Origin: an uncultured bacterium
GTDB lineage: Bacteria > Calescibacteriota > Calescibacteriia > Calescibacteriales > Calescibacteriaceae
Assembly: GCA_938036315.1 (NCBI GenBank)
Contig: CALHPK010000001.1
Span: forward strand, 144,109-208,108
Length of the DNA stretch: 64,000 nt
Reading direction: 5' to 3'
Shown here: in pieces, positions 9,367 to 64,000 of the stretch
How the letters are laid out: each line of letters starts with the position of its first letter
How positions within the stretch are numbered: the first letter of the stretch is position 1
Translations under genes and position numbers: made by a program
The notes under the pieces: model-generated
The model's input: the letters and a program-made list of their open reading frames with translations, nothing else
Told to the model about the DNA's origin: nothing
Database searches by the model: none

Positions 9367-10461
9367 TTAGAATAGCTCAGCTTTCATCTTGAGAAGCCTT
9401 CTTGCTTTCTCCTTTGCTATCTCGTTTGGGAGCTTGGCCTCAGGTATAGACCCTGAGTCGGTTTCAAGTATATACTGAATCATTTCATCAAATATTTGTT
9501 CGCCTGTCTTTTCTGTGAAGAGAGCTGAAACTTCAGGTGAAGAAATCTGTTTATATTCTTCTTCAAGCTTTTTGACCTGTTCTTGAAGCTTCTGCCTTAC
9601 CCCCTCATCCTCTACCTCTTCTATGGTTGATTTATAACCTTCTATTTTCTCTCTTAATCTTTCTACCTCCTCCTGGTATACCTCTTTCTCGGTTCTATCT
9701 TTCAGAAGTGTCGCGTAAAATTGAGCGTATGGAACATATGCAAGCAAGAATTTTCCATCAGATTTTCTAAAGGCTCTACTGAAAAATATCTTTGATTTTG
9801 TTGGACTCCCCCCAAGGATACTCGGAGCAGTCGCATAAAAAGAAGCTCTCAAGATCAGCGGAGTCCCATAATAGTAGCCTTCATCCAATTCAATAAGTCT
9901 ATCCATAAAAGCTAGGAGTTTTGAGATTTCTGCAACAGTCTCCGGAGTCCCTCCAGATGCTGAGATCCAGTACGCAAGGCAGGATGTATACCAGAAGGCT
10001 AATTTTATATCATCTTTACTTATGGTCTTAGCAAGATCTTCGAATTGAGCTTTATTTTCTTTCAACAACTTCAGAACCTCCGCAAATTTTTTATTCCTCA
10101 AGGATAACCCTTTTTCTGCATGCATATATCCTTTGCGGTATAGAATAGAAGCCTTCTCCCTGTCTTCATCTTCTACAAAAGCAAACCCCCATGAACAGTA
10201 AGCTTCAGCAAGAGCCTCAAGAATTACGGTATTGTTAGGATCGAGCATAAGAGCGGTTTCCATAATCAGTATATTTGAAGCTATGCCAGAACCTAAGACA
10301 AAAGGAATATCATACCTCTGAATCAGAGGTGAGAACTCAGCAGTAGTTTCAGCAGTAGTCACAACAGCTATCTTCTTTATATTGCAAGAAGCAAAAAGCA
10401 ACCCGCCTATCAACGATGCCAATATAACTTTTTTACTTTTACTTCCACCAACCATCACCAT
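9367..10461 (-). CDS. TatT/Tp0956-like lipoprotein (TRAP transporter T component family)
   Basis: A helical-repeat lipoprotein resembling TatT (Tp0956), which in Treponema is tied to a TRAP transporter. Family landmarks are ALMLDPNNTVILEALAEAY, YRKGYMHAEKG, ELDEGYYYGTP, ATAPSILGGSPTKSKIFF and LAYVPYAQFYATLLKDR. A signal peptide with lipobox-like LFASC puts the lipidated Cys at residue 26. The frame opens at 10497, but GGAGG at 10466-10470 precedes tandem ATGs at 10464, 10461 and 10455; I chose 10461 for spacing and signal-peptide length. The stretch before the C-terminus has a coiled coil rich in Glu and Lys. No DctM or DctQ gene is nearby, so the partner is unknown. Confidence 0.8.
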   Translation of the reverse strand: MVMVGGSKSKKVILASLIGGLLFASCNIKKIAVVTTAETTAEFSPLIQRYDIPFVLGSGIASNILIMETALMLDPNNTVILEALAEAYCSWGFAFVEDEDREKASILYRKGYMHAEKGLSLRNKKFAEVLKLLKENKAQFEDLAKTISKDDIKLAFWYTSCLAYWISASGGTPETVAEISKLLAFMDRLIELDEGYYYGTPLILRASFYATAPSILGGSPTKSKIFFSRAFRKSDGKFLLAYVPYAQFYATLLKDRTEKEVYQEEVERLREKIEGYKSTIEEVEDEGVRQKLQEQVKKLEEEYKQISSPEVSALFTEKTGEQIFDEMIQYILETDSGSIPEAKLPNEIAKEKARRLLKMKAELF

Positions 10462-57686: not shown

Positions 57687-57692
57687 CTCCTA

Positions 57693-57818
57693 TTATAACT
57701 TCTCCCACTCAAAATTTGTGATATTCCTCCTTTTCTTCGAAAATTCCACCTCCACAAGATATATATATTTTTCTTTGTATTTCTTCCAATACTTTTTCTG
57801 CTTTATCTTCTCCAGTGC
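57693..57818 (-). pseudogene. remnant of the C-terminus of a PD-(D/E)XK-type nuclease
   Basis: On the reverse strand 41 codons plus a stop read ALEKIKQKKYWKKY, then KEKYIYLVEVEFSKKRRN, then ITNFEWEKL. This matches, nearly residue for residue, the C-terminus of the protein cut by the right window edge (ALEQIKQKRYWEKY and NITNFEWEKL). It also fits the end of the AAA-ATPase-like/PDDEXK_9 family as I know it. An in-frame stop lies 4 codons upstream and no start or nuclease core follows, so the copy is decayed. It sits directly before cinA and overlaps its promoter-like box. Confidence 0.75.
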
Positions 57819-58023
57819 TATTACTCTCGCTCATTACACAACTTTTCTTCAGTTGTTACCTCCTCCACATTGAAGGTATTAAACCAGAGCTTCTGGATGC
57901 AATTGCTTTTGGTCTTGAAGTCAATTCAGTAAAAAAGCTTCAAGCCTTATGTCAGAGATTTCAAACATTCAAAATGGCGTGTCAAAAAATTCAAGTGAAA
58001 GACTTGTTCAACTTAAGAAATTT
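57819..58023. other. 205-base segment between the nuclease remnant and the giant gene
   Basis: No recognisable gene. A plus-strand frame of 70 codons runs 57815-58027 but overlaps the remnant and matches nothing I know; it is not called. Confidence 0.4.
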
Positions 58024-61000
58024 TTAAAACACTTTTTTCTTTCTCTTTCGCAAAAGCAAGATCAAAGGCAAAGCAGAGATAAAGATAAGGTAGCCAAAAC
58101 CAGAAACTGAACAACCAAATTTTGAAGTAAGTTCTTGATCTTGATCTGAAGTGAATTCAGTTTGATCAGTTTGAGATGTGCCAAAGTACTGCGGAGCTCC
58201 ACCGCCACCGCCTCCACCACTTCCCGACAAAACTCTAACTGGAGTGCTTCTGTGTGTCCAGGTCCCATCTCCTAACTGCCCCCACGCATTCCACCCCCAG
58301 CACCAAAGTGAATTATCTGTCTTTACAGCACAGGTGTGTTCCCCTCCCAAAGAAACTTGTGAAACCCCTTGTGTTATCTGCACCGGGGTGTTTCTGTCTT
58401 GAGTTGTCCCATTCCCTAACTGTCCGAAGTAATTCTCCCCCCAGCACCACAGTGAACCATCTGTCTTTATCGCACAGGTGTGCCACCCTCCCAAAGAAAC
58501 TTGTGAAACCCCCGTTGCCATTATCTGCACTGGAGTGTTCTTGTTTTCATTTGTACCATCTCCTAACTGTCCGCGGTTATTACTCCCCCAGCACCAAAGA
58601 GAACCATCTGTCTTTACAGCACAGGTGTGAAAAGCCCCCAAAGAGACTTGTGAAACCCCCGTTGCCATTATCTGCACAGGAGTGTCCCTATAATATACAC
58701 CTGTCCCGTCTCCTAACTGTCCAGACCGATTATCCCCCCAGCACCAAAGTGAACCATCTGTCTTTACAGCACAGGTGTGCCACCACCCCAATGAAACTTG
58801 TGAAACACCCGTTGCCATTATCTGCACTGGAGTGTACCTGTTTGTCCAAGTCCCATCTCCTAACTGACCGAATTCATTCCACCCCCAGCACCAGAGAGAG
58901 TTATCTGTCTTTATCGCACAGGTGTGCCACCACCCCAATGAAACTTGTGAAACACCCGTTGCCATTATCTGCACTGGGGCGCTACTGGGTGCAGTTGTAC
59001 CATTCCCTAACTGCCCGTATTCATTCCTCCCCCAGCACCAGAGGGAGTTATCTGTCTTTACAGCACAGGTGTGATAACCCCCCGAAGAAATTTGTATAGC
59101 TCCCTCAAAGTATATTGATGAGGTGGTTGCTGATATTATATTTGAGTATGCTGTGTTTCCTGTTGAGTTGAAGGCATATACCCTGAAATAGTAGGTAGTT
59201 TTTTCTTGAAGTGATGTTATATATCCTTCTGTTGTGTTTGCTGAGAAAGTTTGTATTTGTGGATTTGAAAATAAAGAATCAGTTGAGACTTCGACAACAA
59301 ACCCTTGTTCGTTTGGAGAGTTATCCTGCCATCTTAATCCTACTGTATCAGCTGATACGAAGAAATAAGTGAGATTAGAAGGAGCAGAACAGGGCTCAAA
59401 CCCTTCGTCTATCCCTCCTGCGCAGTTATTATCAATTCCATCACATACTTCAGTCTGCCCCGGATTTATCGAAGAGTTTGAATCATCACAATCCCCAGGA
59501 GATAAAACAGCATATGTAGAGTTATCAGGATATGGATCAGTACAGGATACTTGAGAGCCCCCCACAGGATAATATCCATCAAAATCTGCATCCTTGTACC
59601 AAATAGTCCCAGGATTCAGATTAGCATTATTGTCATCACAATCTTCAGGAGATAAAACAGCATATGTAGAGTTCTCAGGATATGGATCAGTGCAGGATAC
59701 TTGAGAGCCCCCCTCAGGATAATATCCATCAAAATCTGCATCCTTGTACCAGATAGTCTCAGGATTCAGATTAGCATTATTGTCATCACAATCCCCAGGA
59801 GATAAAACAGCATATGTAGAGTTCTCAGGATATGGATCAGTGCAGGATACTTGAGAGCCCCCCACAGGATAATATCCATCAAAATCTGCATCCTTGTACC
59901 AGATAGTTCCCGGGTTTACATCCGGATTAAGGTCATCGCAATCTTCTGGCTTTGAAACAGATGTAAATCCTGCTGGCATAGTATTGGCACAGGTAGAAAC
60001 TGATGTCGTCCAAGTATCGGAATCTCGATCTTCCCAAAACCAAGTCTCTATATGCCCTGAGCAATCATTATCTTTCCCATTGTTGCAGTTCAGAGGAGCT
60101 CCAGGGTATATACTTGCTACACTATCGTCGCAATCCAAAAGTGTTATTGTTGTAAGGTTATATGGTGATGTTGGTCCACAAGCCACTTGCACCGCACCAT
60201 CTGTGTAACCATCAGAATCCGCATCTTTGTAGAATACCAATAATACCCCTTCATCTATTTCTCCATCGCAGTCGTTATCTATTCCATCACAAATTTCTGT
60301 TGCTCCCGGTTTTATGTTTGGATTGTTATCGTTACAATCACCAACCATTGCATACAAGACATATCCTTGTGGTTGCAAGCAGGATATCCGCGTTGTCCCA
60401 TCTGTGTAGCCATCAGAATCGCTGTCTTTGAACCATACTGTATTTGGATTTATCTCCGCTCTCTCATCATCACAATCTTGTGAATTTGAAACATAACCCT
60501 GTGGTTGCGTGCAAGCTTCTGTCACTGAACCAGGATTACCATAACCATCTGAATCTTTATCTTGATAAAACGTTAACTTCACACCTTCATCTATTTCTCC
60601 ATCGCAGTCATTATCTATTCCATCACAAACTTCTTCCTTTGGCACACACACTATCTCACCTTCCTTGTTTTCCTTCTTTATCTCTACCTTCTTCTCAAAA
60701 ACTGTCTCGGCTCCTTCGCTGTCTCTTACCACTACTCTTAATACATATTCCCCACCATCTGCAGTCTGAGGAACCTTTACAACCGCTGTCGCTCCATAAG
60801 GTGTTATCCAATCAAATTTCACTCCATCTTTCGTTATCTCCCAAGCAAACGTAACATCGTCTCCGTCCGGTTCATTCACTACCGCAGATGCTACAAATTC
60901 TCTCCCTATCCATATACCCCCTGTTGTACCTATCTTTATAACCCGTGGTGCTCTGTTCTCTTTCTTTACTTCAATCGTGGTTGAGACTGTGTCTTTGTTC

Positions 61001-63690
61001 CCTCCCGAATCCTGAGCTTGGAGCACCAAAAGCGCCGTCTTCGCACCTTGCGGAACTTGTATCTCAAACTCTTTCTCCGCTTTCCCTCTTTCCAAAATTA
61101 TAGAACCTGAATCAGAATATCCCCAATCCGTTACTGAAAGACTGTAATTTAAAAAACTTGAATCATCTGAAAACTCAACCTTTAATTTTGCTCTCCCCCC
61201 CGCTTTTGCTTGTCCTTTCTGGATTATCTTTATCAAGGGTGAGGCATCTTCTATTTCCAAAGTTATGTCAACCGAAGCAGTTGAACCTTTCTCCTTTGTC
61301 TGTATCTCTCTTTCTACTCTAACACCCTTGTAACTTGCATAAATTTTTACTTTTGTGTTAGGTGGTGCCTCGAGTTTGAACTGCCCCCCTGAATTTGTGT
61401 AGTCAACCTCTCCAAACTCCGTTTCTACCCTCACCCCTGGTATGTGATTCCCTCTTTTTGATTGAATAGTCCCTTGAACCCATGCAGGGCGAGTATCTAT
61501 CTCCTGCTCTGACCATACACACTCCGTCCCCTTTGCCTCGTATTCCTTCTCGTAAATCTCTTGCGTTGTAGATGTTTGGTATATAAACTTTACTTTGTAT
61601 CTGTATCTCCCTTCTTCTGATTTCTTCGCCCTTCCTCCTCGAACCTTAAAAAATCCATCTTCATCCGTAAAAACTGGAGACCTATCTCCAACTATGACTG
61701 ATACTCCCCTCAATCCTTTCCCTTCTTTATCTCTCACTTGCCCTTCTGCACATACCTCAACATATTCAAAGTTTGCACCCTGACAGGAAACTTGACTGTC
61801 CTCTGGCTTTACCCTGACAACTTCTGTTCTCCCCTCTGTTGAGCCATCCGGAAACTTTGCTATGTATGTGATTTTCACGTCCTCTGTTTGTGTAGGTCTT
61901 GGTATAAAAACTTCAAAATCCCCTGAAGATTTTGTTTTTGTGTTGTTCCCTCCAACGAAAACTTCTACCCCCTCTGCAGGTTGTGAATTTACAAACACCT
62001 TACATCCAACTTTCAAAGGAGAGAGATTTATTGAAAATTGACAGGTTTCAGCTGTTATATCTTTGTCAACATTTAAAGTTTTTTGTGCTTTGTAAGTTCT
62101 CCCGTCTTTTTCGGTAGAAATCGTAATAGTAATGTTTCCACCCCTTGAGATTAAACTGAAATTTCCAGATGAGTCAGTTTTTGTTGCCTTCCCTTCTGAT
62201 GATACAACATTTGCGTTCTGTATAGGATTACCTTCCTCATCCTTCACAAAGCATGAAACTGAAAACATTGAAGGCGGTGACAGAGTTGGACCTTCATAAC
62301 AACCTTCTTTCTTATCTCCAACTGAAAATTCCTTTACCCCTGAAATCTCTCCGTAGGTGCCATATATCCTTCCATTCCAAGCATAAATCCTGTCTGTCGC
62401 AAAAATCCTTATATTAGAATTAGAAGGAACATATAAGATATACTCGCCATTTTCGTCAGAAATTGTGTATGTTGACCTATATCCTGAGCATATCCATTGA
62501 CCTACAATCTCACCGTATCTTCTCAACTCCGAAGCCGTTACATAAACTCCACTCACTGGTTTCCCATCCGCTCCTATTACCTTACCTTTTACACATACAT
62601 TCCTTGGCAATGTTGGACACCCAAAACTCCACCAAGATGTGTGAGTTAGACTCATCTCCCCGTATGCGACCTCATCTAAAATTCCGTCCCCGTCCGTGTC
62701 TTCTTTGAATATCACAACCTTTGCTTCTTTATGCCTTTTCCATATTCCATCCTCAGCATCATATGAATACAAAGGGATAGAATTTGCTCCCCTTTTGTAT
62801 GCCTCTAAAGCGTCTTTTTGTAAACTTTCTGGCAATCTCCGCATCACCATTACTGGATTTTCTGGAGATGCCACCTGCACATCTTTGCCACCCTGCTTAA
62901 AACTTAAAGAAGTCCATCCAAGTGCTTTAAGTTCAACTTCTTCAATTCCTGAAATCCCTAAGATCCCCTTTGCCTCTTCATCTTGTGCTTTAAAATCCCC
63001 TGGAAAGCTATTTAAATTTCTGTCAGGGTCTCCAACTGTTATTTCTACTGTGATTTCTCCTTCCTGCTGTTTTGTAAAGAAAGATTTTATCTCGTCCAAC
63101 ACAGAAGAAGGTGATGCTCTTCCTGTTACTATTCTTCCTGTTACTAATCTTCCTGTTACAAAGGCTTCTCCCGAATCTGTTCTCATTGTTTCTGTTCCAT
63201 CAGGGTTTTGAGTATATCTACCTGTTACTAATCTTCCTGTTACGAATCTTCCCGTTACAAAGTCTGCTTGAATATCCACATTTATTGCCCTGCCTGTTAT
63301 AATTCTACCTGTTATAATTCTACCTGTTATAATTCTACCTGTTATAAGTCTGCCTGTTACAAAATCAGAGCGTATTACTTTATGAGAAGGAGCAAAACCT
63401 TCTTGTTCGACAGTGATTTTTATATCTTTTCCTTCTTGGATTGGGACTTCTGCTGAAAATACCCCGAACTCATCTGTTTTGGTTTCTTGAACTTTGCCAG
63501 CAGATTCAATTTTTACATTTGCCGAGATCAGGGGCTTTCCTTCTATGGAGTCCTTTACTGTTCCTGAAACAATTATGGATGTAAGTTCCTTTTCCTCTGC
63601 TTCATTTTTTACTTTACATAAAGAAGCACAAGACGAAAGGAAGACAAAGACGAAAAAATAAAGAATCAATAAACGTAGAATATTATTCAT
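58024..63690 (-). CDS. giant multidomain surface lipoprotein with VTGR, MopE-type, Fn3 and RCC1 repeats
   Basis: An 1888-residue exported protein, function unknown. A lipoprotein signal ends in FLSSC (Cys21). A carboxypeptidase-regulatory-like fold (about 30-105) leads to eleven [FLI][VI]TGR pentapeptides (about 107-196). Further regulatory-like and Ig-like domains with two Cys each run to about 1015. Acidic MopE-type units (CDGIDNDCDGEIDEG, DKDSDGYG) cover about 1017-1433, including three near-identical 50-residue copies. A fibronectin type III domain (about 1434-1530), six RCC1 blades (HTCAVKTD, LWCWG, GQLG; about 1530-1828) and a Gly run follow. The end is FGCSVSGFG, a hydrophobic stretch and RKRKKK, like Cys-containing C-terminal sorting signals. 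TATAAT ends 11 bases before the ATG. Confidence 0.88.
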   Translation of the reverse strand: MNNILRLLILYFFVFVFLSSCASLCKVKNEAEEKELTSIIVSGTVKDSIEGKPLISANVKIESAGKVQETKTDEFGVFSAEVPIQEGKDIKITVEQEGFAPSHKVIRSDFVTGRLITGRIITGRIITGRIITGRAINVDIQADFVTGRFVTGRLVTGRYTQNPDGTETMRTDSGEAFVTGRLVTGRIVTGRASPSSVLDEIKSFFTKQQEGEITVEITVGDPDRNLNSFPGDFKAQDEEAKGILGISGIEEVELKALGWTSLSFKQGGKDVQVASPENPVMVMRRLPESLQKDALEAYKRGANSIPLYSYDAEDGIWKRHKEAKVVIFKEDTDGDGILDEVAYGEMSLTHTSWWSFGCPTLPRNVCVKGKVIGADGKPVSGVYVTASELRRYGEIVGQWICSGYRSTYTISDENGEYILYVPSNSNIRIFATDRIYAWNGRIYGTYGEISGVKEFSVGDKKEGCYEGPTLSPPSMFSVSCFVKDEEGNPIQNANVVSSEGKATKTDSSGNFSLISRGGNITITISTEKDGRTYKAQKTLNVDKDITAETCQFSINLSPLKVGCKVFVNSQPAEGVEVFVGGNNTKTKSSGDFEVFIPRPTQTEDVKITYIAKFPDGSTEGRTEVVRVKPEDSQVSCQGANFEYVEVCAEGQVRDKEGKGLRGVSVIVGDRSPVFTDEDGFFKVRGGRAKKSEEGRYRYKVKFIYQTSTTQEIYEKEYEAKGTECVWSEQEIDTRPAWVQGTIQSKRGNHIPGVRVETEFGEVDYTNSGGQFKLEAPPNTKVKIYASYKGVRVEREIQTKEKGSTASVDITLEIEDASPLIKIIQKGQAKAGGRAKLKVEFSDDSSFLNYSLSVTDWGYSDSGSIILERGKAEKEFEIQVPQGAKTALLVLQAQDSGGNKDTVSTTIEVKKENRAPRVIKIGTTGGIWIGREFVASAVVNEPDGDDVTFAWEITKDGVKFDWITPYGATAVVKVPQTADGGEYVLRVVVRDSEGAETVFEKKVEIKKENKEGEIVCVPKEEVCDGIDNDCDGEIDEGVKLTFYQDKDSDGYGNPGSVTEACTQPQGYVSNSQDCDDERAEINPNTVWFKDSDSDGYTDGTTRISCLQPQGYVLYAMVGDCNDNNPNIKPGATEICDGIDNDCDGEIDEGVLLVFYKDADSDGYTDGAVQVACGPTSPYNLTTITLLDCDDSVASIYPGAPLNCNNGKDNDCSGHIETWFWEDRDSDTWTTSVSTCANTMPAGFTSVSKPEDCDDLNPDVNPGTIWYKDADFDGYYPVGGSQVSCTDPYPENSTYAVLSPGDCDDNNANLNPETIWYKDADFDGYYPEGGSQVSCTDPYPENSTYAVLSPEDCDDNNANLNPGTIWYKDADFDGYYPVGGSQVSCTDPYPDNSTYAVLSPGDCDDSNSSINPGQTEVCDGIDNNCAGGIDEGFEPCSAPSNLTYFFVSADTVGLRWQDNSPNEQGFVVEVSTDSLFSNPQIQTFSANTTEGYITSLQEKTTYYFRVYAFNSTGNTAYSNIISATTSSIYFEGAIQISSGGYHTCAVKTDNSLWCWGRNEYGQLGNGTTAPSSAPVQIMATGVSQVSLGWWHTCAIKTDNSLWCWGWNEFGQLGDGTWTNRYTPVQIMATGVSQVSLGWWHTCAVKTDGSLWCWGDNRSGQLGDGTGVYYRDTPVQIMATGVSQVSLGAFHTCAVKTDGSLWCWGSNNRGQLGDGTNENKNTPVQIMATGVSQVSLGGWHTCAIKTDGSLWCWGENYFGQLGNGTTQDRNTPVQITQGVSQVSLGGEHTCAVKTDNSLWCWGWNAWGQLGDGTWTHRSTPVRVLSGSGGGGGGGAPQYFGTSQTDQTEFTSDQDQELTSKFGCSVSGFGYLIFISALPLILLLRKRKKKVF
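58210..59100 (-). repeat. six RCC1 blade repeats, period about 147-150 bases
   Basis: Six DNA copies of a segment coding for the RCC1 blade (HTCAVKTD-LWCWG-GQLG) lie in direct tandem within the giant gene. Recurring landmarks such as ATCTGTCTTTACAGCACAGG return about every 147-150 bases with few changes, which suggests recent expansion or gene conversion. Confidence 0.85.
59477..59926 (-). repeat. three 150-base near-identical repeats in the MopE-type region
   Basis: The block containing GATAAAACAGCATATGTAGA recurs at 59501, 59651 and 59801, a strict 150-base (50-residue) period with only scattered substitutions. Each copy encodes one WYKDADFDGYYP acidic unit plus a DCDD motif. Confidence 0.9.
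63120..63370 (-). repeat. 15-base repeat array coding for [FLI][VI]TGR pentapeptides
   Basis: CCTGTTATAATTCTA occurs in tandem at 63293-63307, 63308-63322 and 63323-63337, followed by CCTGTTATAAGTCTG and further variants. Two shorter clusters lie at about 63120-63165 and 63220-63265. On the coding strand they give eleven pentapeptides in three groups of five, three and three. Confidence 0.92.
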
Positions 63691-63858
63691 AAGTATTTAT
63701 TATTATAATACTATTTTTTGAAAAGTAGCAAGGAGATTTAAAATTTTTGTGTTGAGGAATTTTTACTGATCAGCATCAGAGTGTGACAGATTTTACGTTT
63801 TCTATTGCTTATTGCTGATATATGTTTATTGTTTGTTATAACTTTTCCTATTCTGTTG
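63691..63858. other. 168-base spacer with a near-duplicate of the nuclease 3' end
   Basis: No gene is visible. TATAACTTTTCCTATTC near 63837-63853 nearly repeats TATAACTTTTCCCATTC at 63860-63876, so the last codons of the flanking nuclease gene have been duplicated beyond its stop. TATAAT (63702-63707, reverse strand) precedes the giant gene. Confidence 0.55.
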
Positions 63859-64000
63859 CTATAACTTTTCCCATTCAAAATTTGTAATGTTTCTTTTTTC
63901 CTTTGAAAACTCAATCCCTATCAGGTAAATATTTTCGTATCTCCCTTTATATTTCTCCCAGTATCTCTTCTGCTTTATCTGTTCCAAAGCTCTTCCTTCC
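63859..64000 (-). CDS. C-terminus of an AAA-ATPase-like/PD-(D/E)XK nuclease family protein, cut by window edge
   Basis: The reverse strand is open from the window edge to a TAG at 63859-63861, giving 46 visible codons: GRALEQIKQKRYWEKYKG, then NIYLIGIEFSKEKRN, then ITNFEWEKL. This is the typical end of the PDDEXK_9 domain of multi-copy AAA-ATPase-like proteins, as I recall the family. These proteins are common in anaerobic bacteria and have no firm role. The same ending recurs as a remnant at 57693-57818, beyond the giant lipoprotein gene. Confidence 0.7.
   Translation of the reverse strand, partial: EGRALEQIKQKRYWEKYKGRYENIYLIGIEFSKEKRNITNFEWEKL

Follow-up and report, generated by a model that had tools for sequence, protein, structure and literature searches.

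A gene on the reverse strand of the window (the whole stretch of 64 000 nucleotides that was analysed) encodes an 1888-residue protein that we read, with a probability of roughly 0.6, as a giant modular surface lipoprotein carrying a new cysteine-containing C-terminal sorting tag that is recognized by a divergent myxosortase. The tag recurs on 18 proteins (the 1888-residue protein and seventeen others) in five genomes of one GTDB family, each of which encodes one myxosortase-type (Mrt-type) protease, and most of the tagged proteins with a readable N-terminus also begin with a lipoprotein-like signal. Relatives closer than this family were not present among the genomes searched. The features of the gene and its product are given in Table 1.

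Table 1. Features of the 1888-residue protein and its gene, with loci of a tagged orphan family
Feature	Position	Strand	Basis
Whole gene, 1888 residues, stop codon included	58024..63690	-	Open reading frame list and translation
Possible sigma-70 promoter, TTGCTA-18-TATAAT, 11 nt before the ATG	63702..63731	-	Consensus match
N-terminal signal peptide, residues 1-20 (MNNILRLLILYFFVFVFLSS)	63631..63690	-	Hydrophobic core (KD 3.17), strict lipobox pattern
Cys21, predicted to become the lipidated N-terminus once signal peptidase II has cut	63628..63630	-	Lipobox LSSC
First CarboxypepD_reg beta-sandwich, residues 41-104	63379..63570	-	Pfam, 38.5 bits, over cut-off
Three arrays of [FLI][VI]TGR repeats, residues 110-134, 144-158 and 177-191	63118..63363	-	Repeat listing
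Stalk of CarboxypepD_reg, Ig-like and PKD-like modules, residues 367-1010	60661..62592	-	Pfam, whole matches and fragments
Acidic Cys-rich MopE-type metal-binding region, residues 1016-1434	59389..60645	-	PF11617, 137.7 bits
Fibronectin type III module, residues 1435-1521	59128..59388	-	Pfam fn3, 33.2 bits
RCC1-type beta-propeller, six repeats, residues 1529-1820	58231..59106	-	Pfam, 217-258 bits
G1859-C1860-S1861, C-terminal tag signature	58108..58116	-	G-C invariant in 16 aligned tags from five genomes
Hydrophobic segment of the tag, residues 1862-1880	58051..58107	-	Sequence
Basic cytoplasmic end RKRKKKVF, residues 1881-1888	58027..58050	-	Sequence
Orphan family loci	L078:1955-3865, L127:1132-2955, L125, L129, L130, L132

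Gene, start and upstream region

The gene is intact in its own genome (genome G000, contig C1). Translation gave a single unbroken open reading frame with an ATG start, and the coordinates 58024–63690 on the reverse strand are exact. The N-terminal start on which the initial annotation depended is sound, because the ATG is preceded by just two codons of open frame (1890 codons in total) and because the start region is shared with a paralogue on another contig (C6_644), together with approximately 110 bp of almost unchanged sequence upstream. The shared upstream stretch lies at window positions 63700–63830 and, for the paralogue, upstream of position 9667 in locus L029. The promoter-like element ends 11 nt before the ATG and the transcript may therefore be almost leaderless; one match to the promoter consensus was found where 1.9 are expected by chance, and stronger evidence comes from the upstream DNA in common with the paralogue.

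The neighbouring genes, which by recognition we take to encode CinA, MurJ, MurD and HslU, gave no pointer to a specific role. Similar short protein-coding remnants were observed on either flank of the gene (positions 57690–57860 and 63860–64000, both on the reverse strand), with the pattern ..IKQKxYWxKYK..IYLxxxEFSKxxRNITNFEWEKL. They presumably resemble the C-terminus of PD-(D/E)XK-type proteins, and a duplication or an insertion may have left them behind.

N-terminal signal and modules

The lipoprotein signal (FLSSC) first proposed for the N-terminus was borne out, as YFFVFVFLSS-C21 fits the strict lipoprotein pattern. Regulatory-like, MopE-type, Fn3 and RCC1 modules had also been named, and all were recovered with Pfam (CarboxypepD_reg, MopE, fn3 and six RCC1 repeats). 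Five stretches of the protein match CarboxypepD_reg, and some of the stalk fragments score below the Pfam cut-off. The MopE region consists of seven units, counted by eye, and has a net charge of about −70; its acidic DxDxDG repeats suggest that it may be stiffened by calcium, and the protein may be the adhesin or scaffold that was suggested initially. Solved relatives of the RCC1 propeller are UVR8, HERC2 and RCC1.

The module described initially as 'pentapeptide' is a genuine repeat of eleven [FLI][VI]TGR units in three arrays, encoded by 15 bp tandem repeats, but it is a lineage-specific xxTGR repeat and not the Pfam pentapeptide-repeat family. TGR-like stretches also occur in the paralogue C6_973 (L028:9120–12041, without the tag described below) and in G004:C77, and the orthologue in G004:C85 has lost the region at a frame break. 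The arrays are possibly variable in length. A predicted structure of residues 22–868, calculated without an alignment, was discarded (mean pLDDT of 38).

A second giant paralogue was observed on contig C32 of the same genome (L026:14042–20000, forward strand). It has at least 1986 residues and shares the lipoprotein N-terminus and stalk of the 1888-residue protein, but its propeller-like head is of another kind, and the contig ends before the C-terminus is reached.

C-terminal tag and its recurrence

The protein ends in KFG-C1860-SVSGFG-YLIFISALPLILLL-RKRKKKVF. This end had been likened to the Cys-containing sorting signals of MYXO-CTERM or Synerg-CTERM type, and the likeness holds: the signature Cys, the hydrophobic helix and the basic end recur on unrelated proteins. 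A search of the genome for other proteins with the same tail had been proposed, and such proteins are present. There are six tag proteins in this genome, namely the 1888-residue protein, C6_644, C25_407 (the N-terminus of which lies off the contig), C11_1907, C26_636 and C3_607. Twelve more are distributed over the other four family genomes (one in G001, four in G002, two in G003 and five in G004). In an alignment of 16 representative tags G-C is invariant and S almost invariant. The bodies that precede the tags are unrelated and comprise RCC1, FG-GAP with TIG or PKD, and DUF5122 propellers, peptidase M19 and an orphan family. As in Cys-type CTERM systems generally, the invariant Cys, helix and basic end thus lie at the extreme C-terminus of several unrelated proteins, and a partner intramembrane peptidase is present in all five tag genomes. 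A 2061-residue protein of G001:C35 was rejected as a tag protein; it ends in EEKEPNE without a tag.

The orphan family consists of lipoproteins of approximately 630 residues with a GGGC[SR] tag. It is kept in all five genomes and carries both end tags; the one member tested had no Pfam match.

When the family was searched with a ten-row tag profile, member tags scored at least 54 bits and tags outside the profile approximately 12 to 28 bits. The high scores are not independent, because the tags found had themselves gone into the profile, and the argument from recurrence therefore rests on the control with unrelated genomes and on the extreme C-terminal position. In this control a 16-row profile was run against 16 unrelated genomes and gave no credible match, the single hit being partial and stop-containing. 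Set against the 18 tag proteins, this result makes it scarcely credible that the Cys–helix–basic end arose by coincidence and has no sorting role, a reading favoured by the low scores against curated CTERM models and by nothing further.

Those scores were as follows. MYXO-CTERM (TIGR03901; cut-off 20 bits) gave no match at E ≤ 10 to the whole protein or to four tails. Synerg-CTERM (TIGR04564) scored 13.1–18.0 bits against the tails (below the cut-off of 22.5) and Heimdall-CTERM (NF045529) 12.7–20.1 bits (below the cut-off of 24). As the tag reached none of the curated cut-offs against which it was tested, it stands formally outside the named families. On sequence grounds the tail is a new Cys tag, termed GCS-CTERM here, which is a relative of MYXO-CTERM and Synerg-CTERM and a member of neither. 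Heimdall-CTERM is the top-scoring curated tag model for the tail of the 1888-residue protein (20.1 bits), but within this genome it leaves the divergent C11 tag unmatched. The Synerg-CTERM/MrtS system has a GC..GFG-like signature and helix in common with tags of the type found in the window (13–18 bits), whereas most family tags are without the GFG part and the protease described below scores 64.2 bits against an MrtS cut-off of 130.

Myxosortase-type protease

The only CPBP (PF02517) protein of the genome has 209 residues, and in NCBIfam its top matches are without exception myxosortases (Mrt_core 86.9, MrtP 86.7, MrtC 80.1, MrtX 68.3 and MrtS 64.2 bits). Against Mrt_core (NF040914) it scores about 87–88 bits and does not reach the cut-off of 100. 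Exactly one such protein is present in each of the five family genomes, the relatives scoring 94.8–98.6 bits. As no family member attains the 100-bit cut-off, the family protease is classed from its sequence as a divergent myxosortase branch. Among 26 unrelated genomes three had Mrt-like proteins (82–113 bits), and the remaining CPBPs scored below 45. The catalytic EE/H/H residues of CPBP proteins are present, and the motifs EELFFRG, H, R..FFP.G and H..N of the aligned family proteins also occur in Mrt proteins from other genomes, of which two score above the Mrt_core cut-off. The block R..FFP.G...RE...SI.P...H..N occurs in Mrt-like proteins and is missing from generic CPBPs. A sequence search of the PDB returned no relative of the protease.

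The initial annotation had anticipated a dedicated sorting peptidase of rhombosortase or archaeosortase type. An intramembrane peptidase is present, but it is a myxosortase-type CPBP protein. Exosortase (PF09721) had no match in this genome, which is 85% complete, and rhombosortase (TIGR03902) was absent from it, the sole rhomboid being GlpG-like (18.1 bits against a cut-off of 84); all five family genomes are incomplete (82–86%), which limits these negatives, and a second peptidase may therefore be missing. The GlyGly-CTERM/rhombosortase and PEP-CTERM/exosortase systems follow the same three-part logic, but neither peptidase was found in this genome.

The mrt gene adjoins no tag genes and lacks a conserved neighbourhood among the five family genomes. 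On contig C6 (L034:7692–9253, forward strand) it overlaps the end of a diacylglycerol/lipid-kinase-like gene. An operon link between these two genes was considered and rejected, since the neighbourhood of mrt differs in the other four genomes.

The tail could also be an ordinary, uncut single-pass anchor, with the N-terminal lipid in the outer membrane, the helix in the inner membrane and the stalk bridging the periplasm. Helix and basic end would be sufficient for this, and from the module count a chain of approximately ten beta-sandwich modules would probably be long enough to bridge. We nevertheless consider such an anchor unlikely, as it leaves unexplained both the invariant G-C before the helix on non-homologous proteins and the Mrt-type protease in all five genomes. 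A tag that is read and cut by this protease is the preferred explanation.

Lipobox and tag on the same protein

The N-terminus is readable in 13 of the tag proteins, and 12 of these have a lipobox-like signal. The exception is an M19 peptidase (G002:C60), which has a type I signal peptide only. In a test of 12 tag proteins, judged by patterns and not by a trained predictor, the strict lipobox pattern was matched by seven and the relaxed pattern by 11. Two of the lipobox-like N-termini are weak (LTTC and FSDC; in the latter the relaxed match is a later SGGC). The thirteenth protein is the G004 orthologue of the 1888-residue protein, from another genus (55% identical, lipobox FSFSC and tag GCSSANF), and the frame break in the TGR region of its reading frame may be an assembly fault. 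The weak N-termini, which fall short of the strict pattern, would suit a signal that is not of lipoprotein type (cleaved at a type I site or uncut), which would leave the C-terminal tag as the sole anchor, as in MYXO-CTERM proteins. This is highly improbable given that the 1888-residue protein and six of the eleven others tested have a strict lipobox, and that the lipobox is retained in orthologues across genera.

For comparison, 14 MYXO-CTERM proteins with readable N-termini were taken from two Myxococcales MAGs. Three of these have a strict and five a relaxed lipobox, and in several a type I site coincides with the lipobox position or lies close to it; the tagged proteins there mostly have type I-looking signals, in contrast to the lipoboxes found here. 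The higher lipobox rate in the family is suggestive (Fisher test, p = 0.005 for the relaxed and p = 0.11 for the strict pattern). The presence of both signals, initially described as odd, is indeed so against the MYXO-CTERM model, but in this lineage it is the norm. A comparable lipobox rate across MYXO-, Synerg- and Heimdall-CTERM proteins, if true, would render the double layout ordinary. A search of largely open-access papers joining lipobox with CTERM tags returned no description of a double-tagged protein. The Cys tag and the Mrt branch appear to be new, as does the double-ended layout that recurs in this isolated lineage.

Proposed route to the cell surface

MYXO-CTERM proteins of Myxococcus are trimmed by MrtX, a CPBP protease, and this step depends on the Cys. 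Lipidation, with Lgt as the suspected enzyme, is thought to precede this trimming, and the type II secretion system (T2SS) delivers the trimmed product to the surface (PMC11980579). The MYXO-CTERM/MrtX system (Myxococcus xanthus TraA and others) resembles the present one in its invariant Cys, hydrophobic helix, basic end and CPBP-family peptidase, in a T2SS secretin in the same genome and in its large modular surface proteins. Myxococcales MAGs also contain MopE/Ig-rich relatives, which are distant. The protease here differs in being a divergent Mrt under every subfamily cut-off. A Myxococcus-like route is the best explanation, because the genome has the tag, the Mrt-type protease and the T2SS secretin GspD (479 bits against a cut-off of 351).

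By this route the protein would be exported by Sec, and Cys21 would be lipidated and freed by Lgt and LspA. The C-terminal helix would halt transfer, with the basic end staying in the cytoplasm. Cys1860 would be lipidated next, perhaps by Lgt too, after which the Mrt-type protease would cleave beside it and release the helix, and the T2SS would display the protein on the surface.

It is alternatively conceivable, at a low probability, that the protease cuts but Cys1860 remains free or in a disulfide, with the N-terminal lipid as the sole anchor and the tag acting as a timing or T2SS-targeting signal. The N-terminal lipid already provides an anchor, and one study argues that GlyGly-CTERM is an independent targeting motif and that attachment to the inner membrane may aid secretion (PMC13393428). 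However, sorting tags believed to be lipidated are characterized by just such an invariant Cys at the site of cleavage, and the M19 peptidase with its type I signal would be left anchorless. Pullulanase and InvL are lipoproteins displayed by the T2SS, and their N-terminal lipid and T2SS surface delivery would be shared by the 1888-residue protein; the passages that describe them mention no C-terminal tag (PMC13393428).

The lipobox, the tag and its recurrence, the Mrt-type protease and the GspD secretin are established at the level of sequence. The lipid on Cys1860 is inferred, as are cleavage at the tag, the surface location, anchoring at two points in an arch shape and the binding of a ligand.

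Significance

These results extend the logic of myxosortase sorting, which was described only recently, to a lineage outside the named systems, where current curated models miss both the tag and the protease. New family models could be built starting from the tag profile and the five Mrt sequences. Somewhat short of an even chance, and offered tentatively, is the broader proposal that this isolated family displays giant proteins as arches, lipidated at an N-terminal and a C-terminal Cys through the new tag and myxosortase branch, as a general mode of display. The family provides a natural set of proteins that seemingly carry both lipoprotein and Cys-CTERM signals, and with this set it can be tested which enzyme attaches the lipid to the C-terminal Cys and how the cell benefits from anchoring a protein at two ends.
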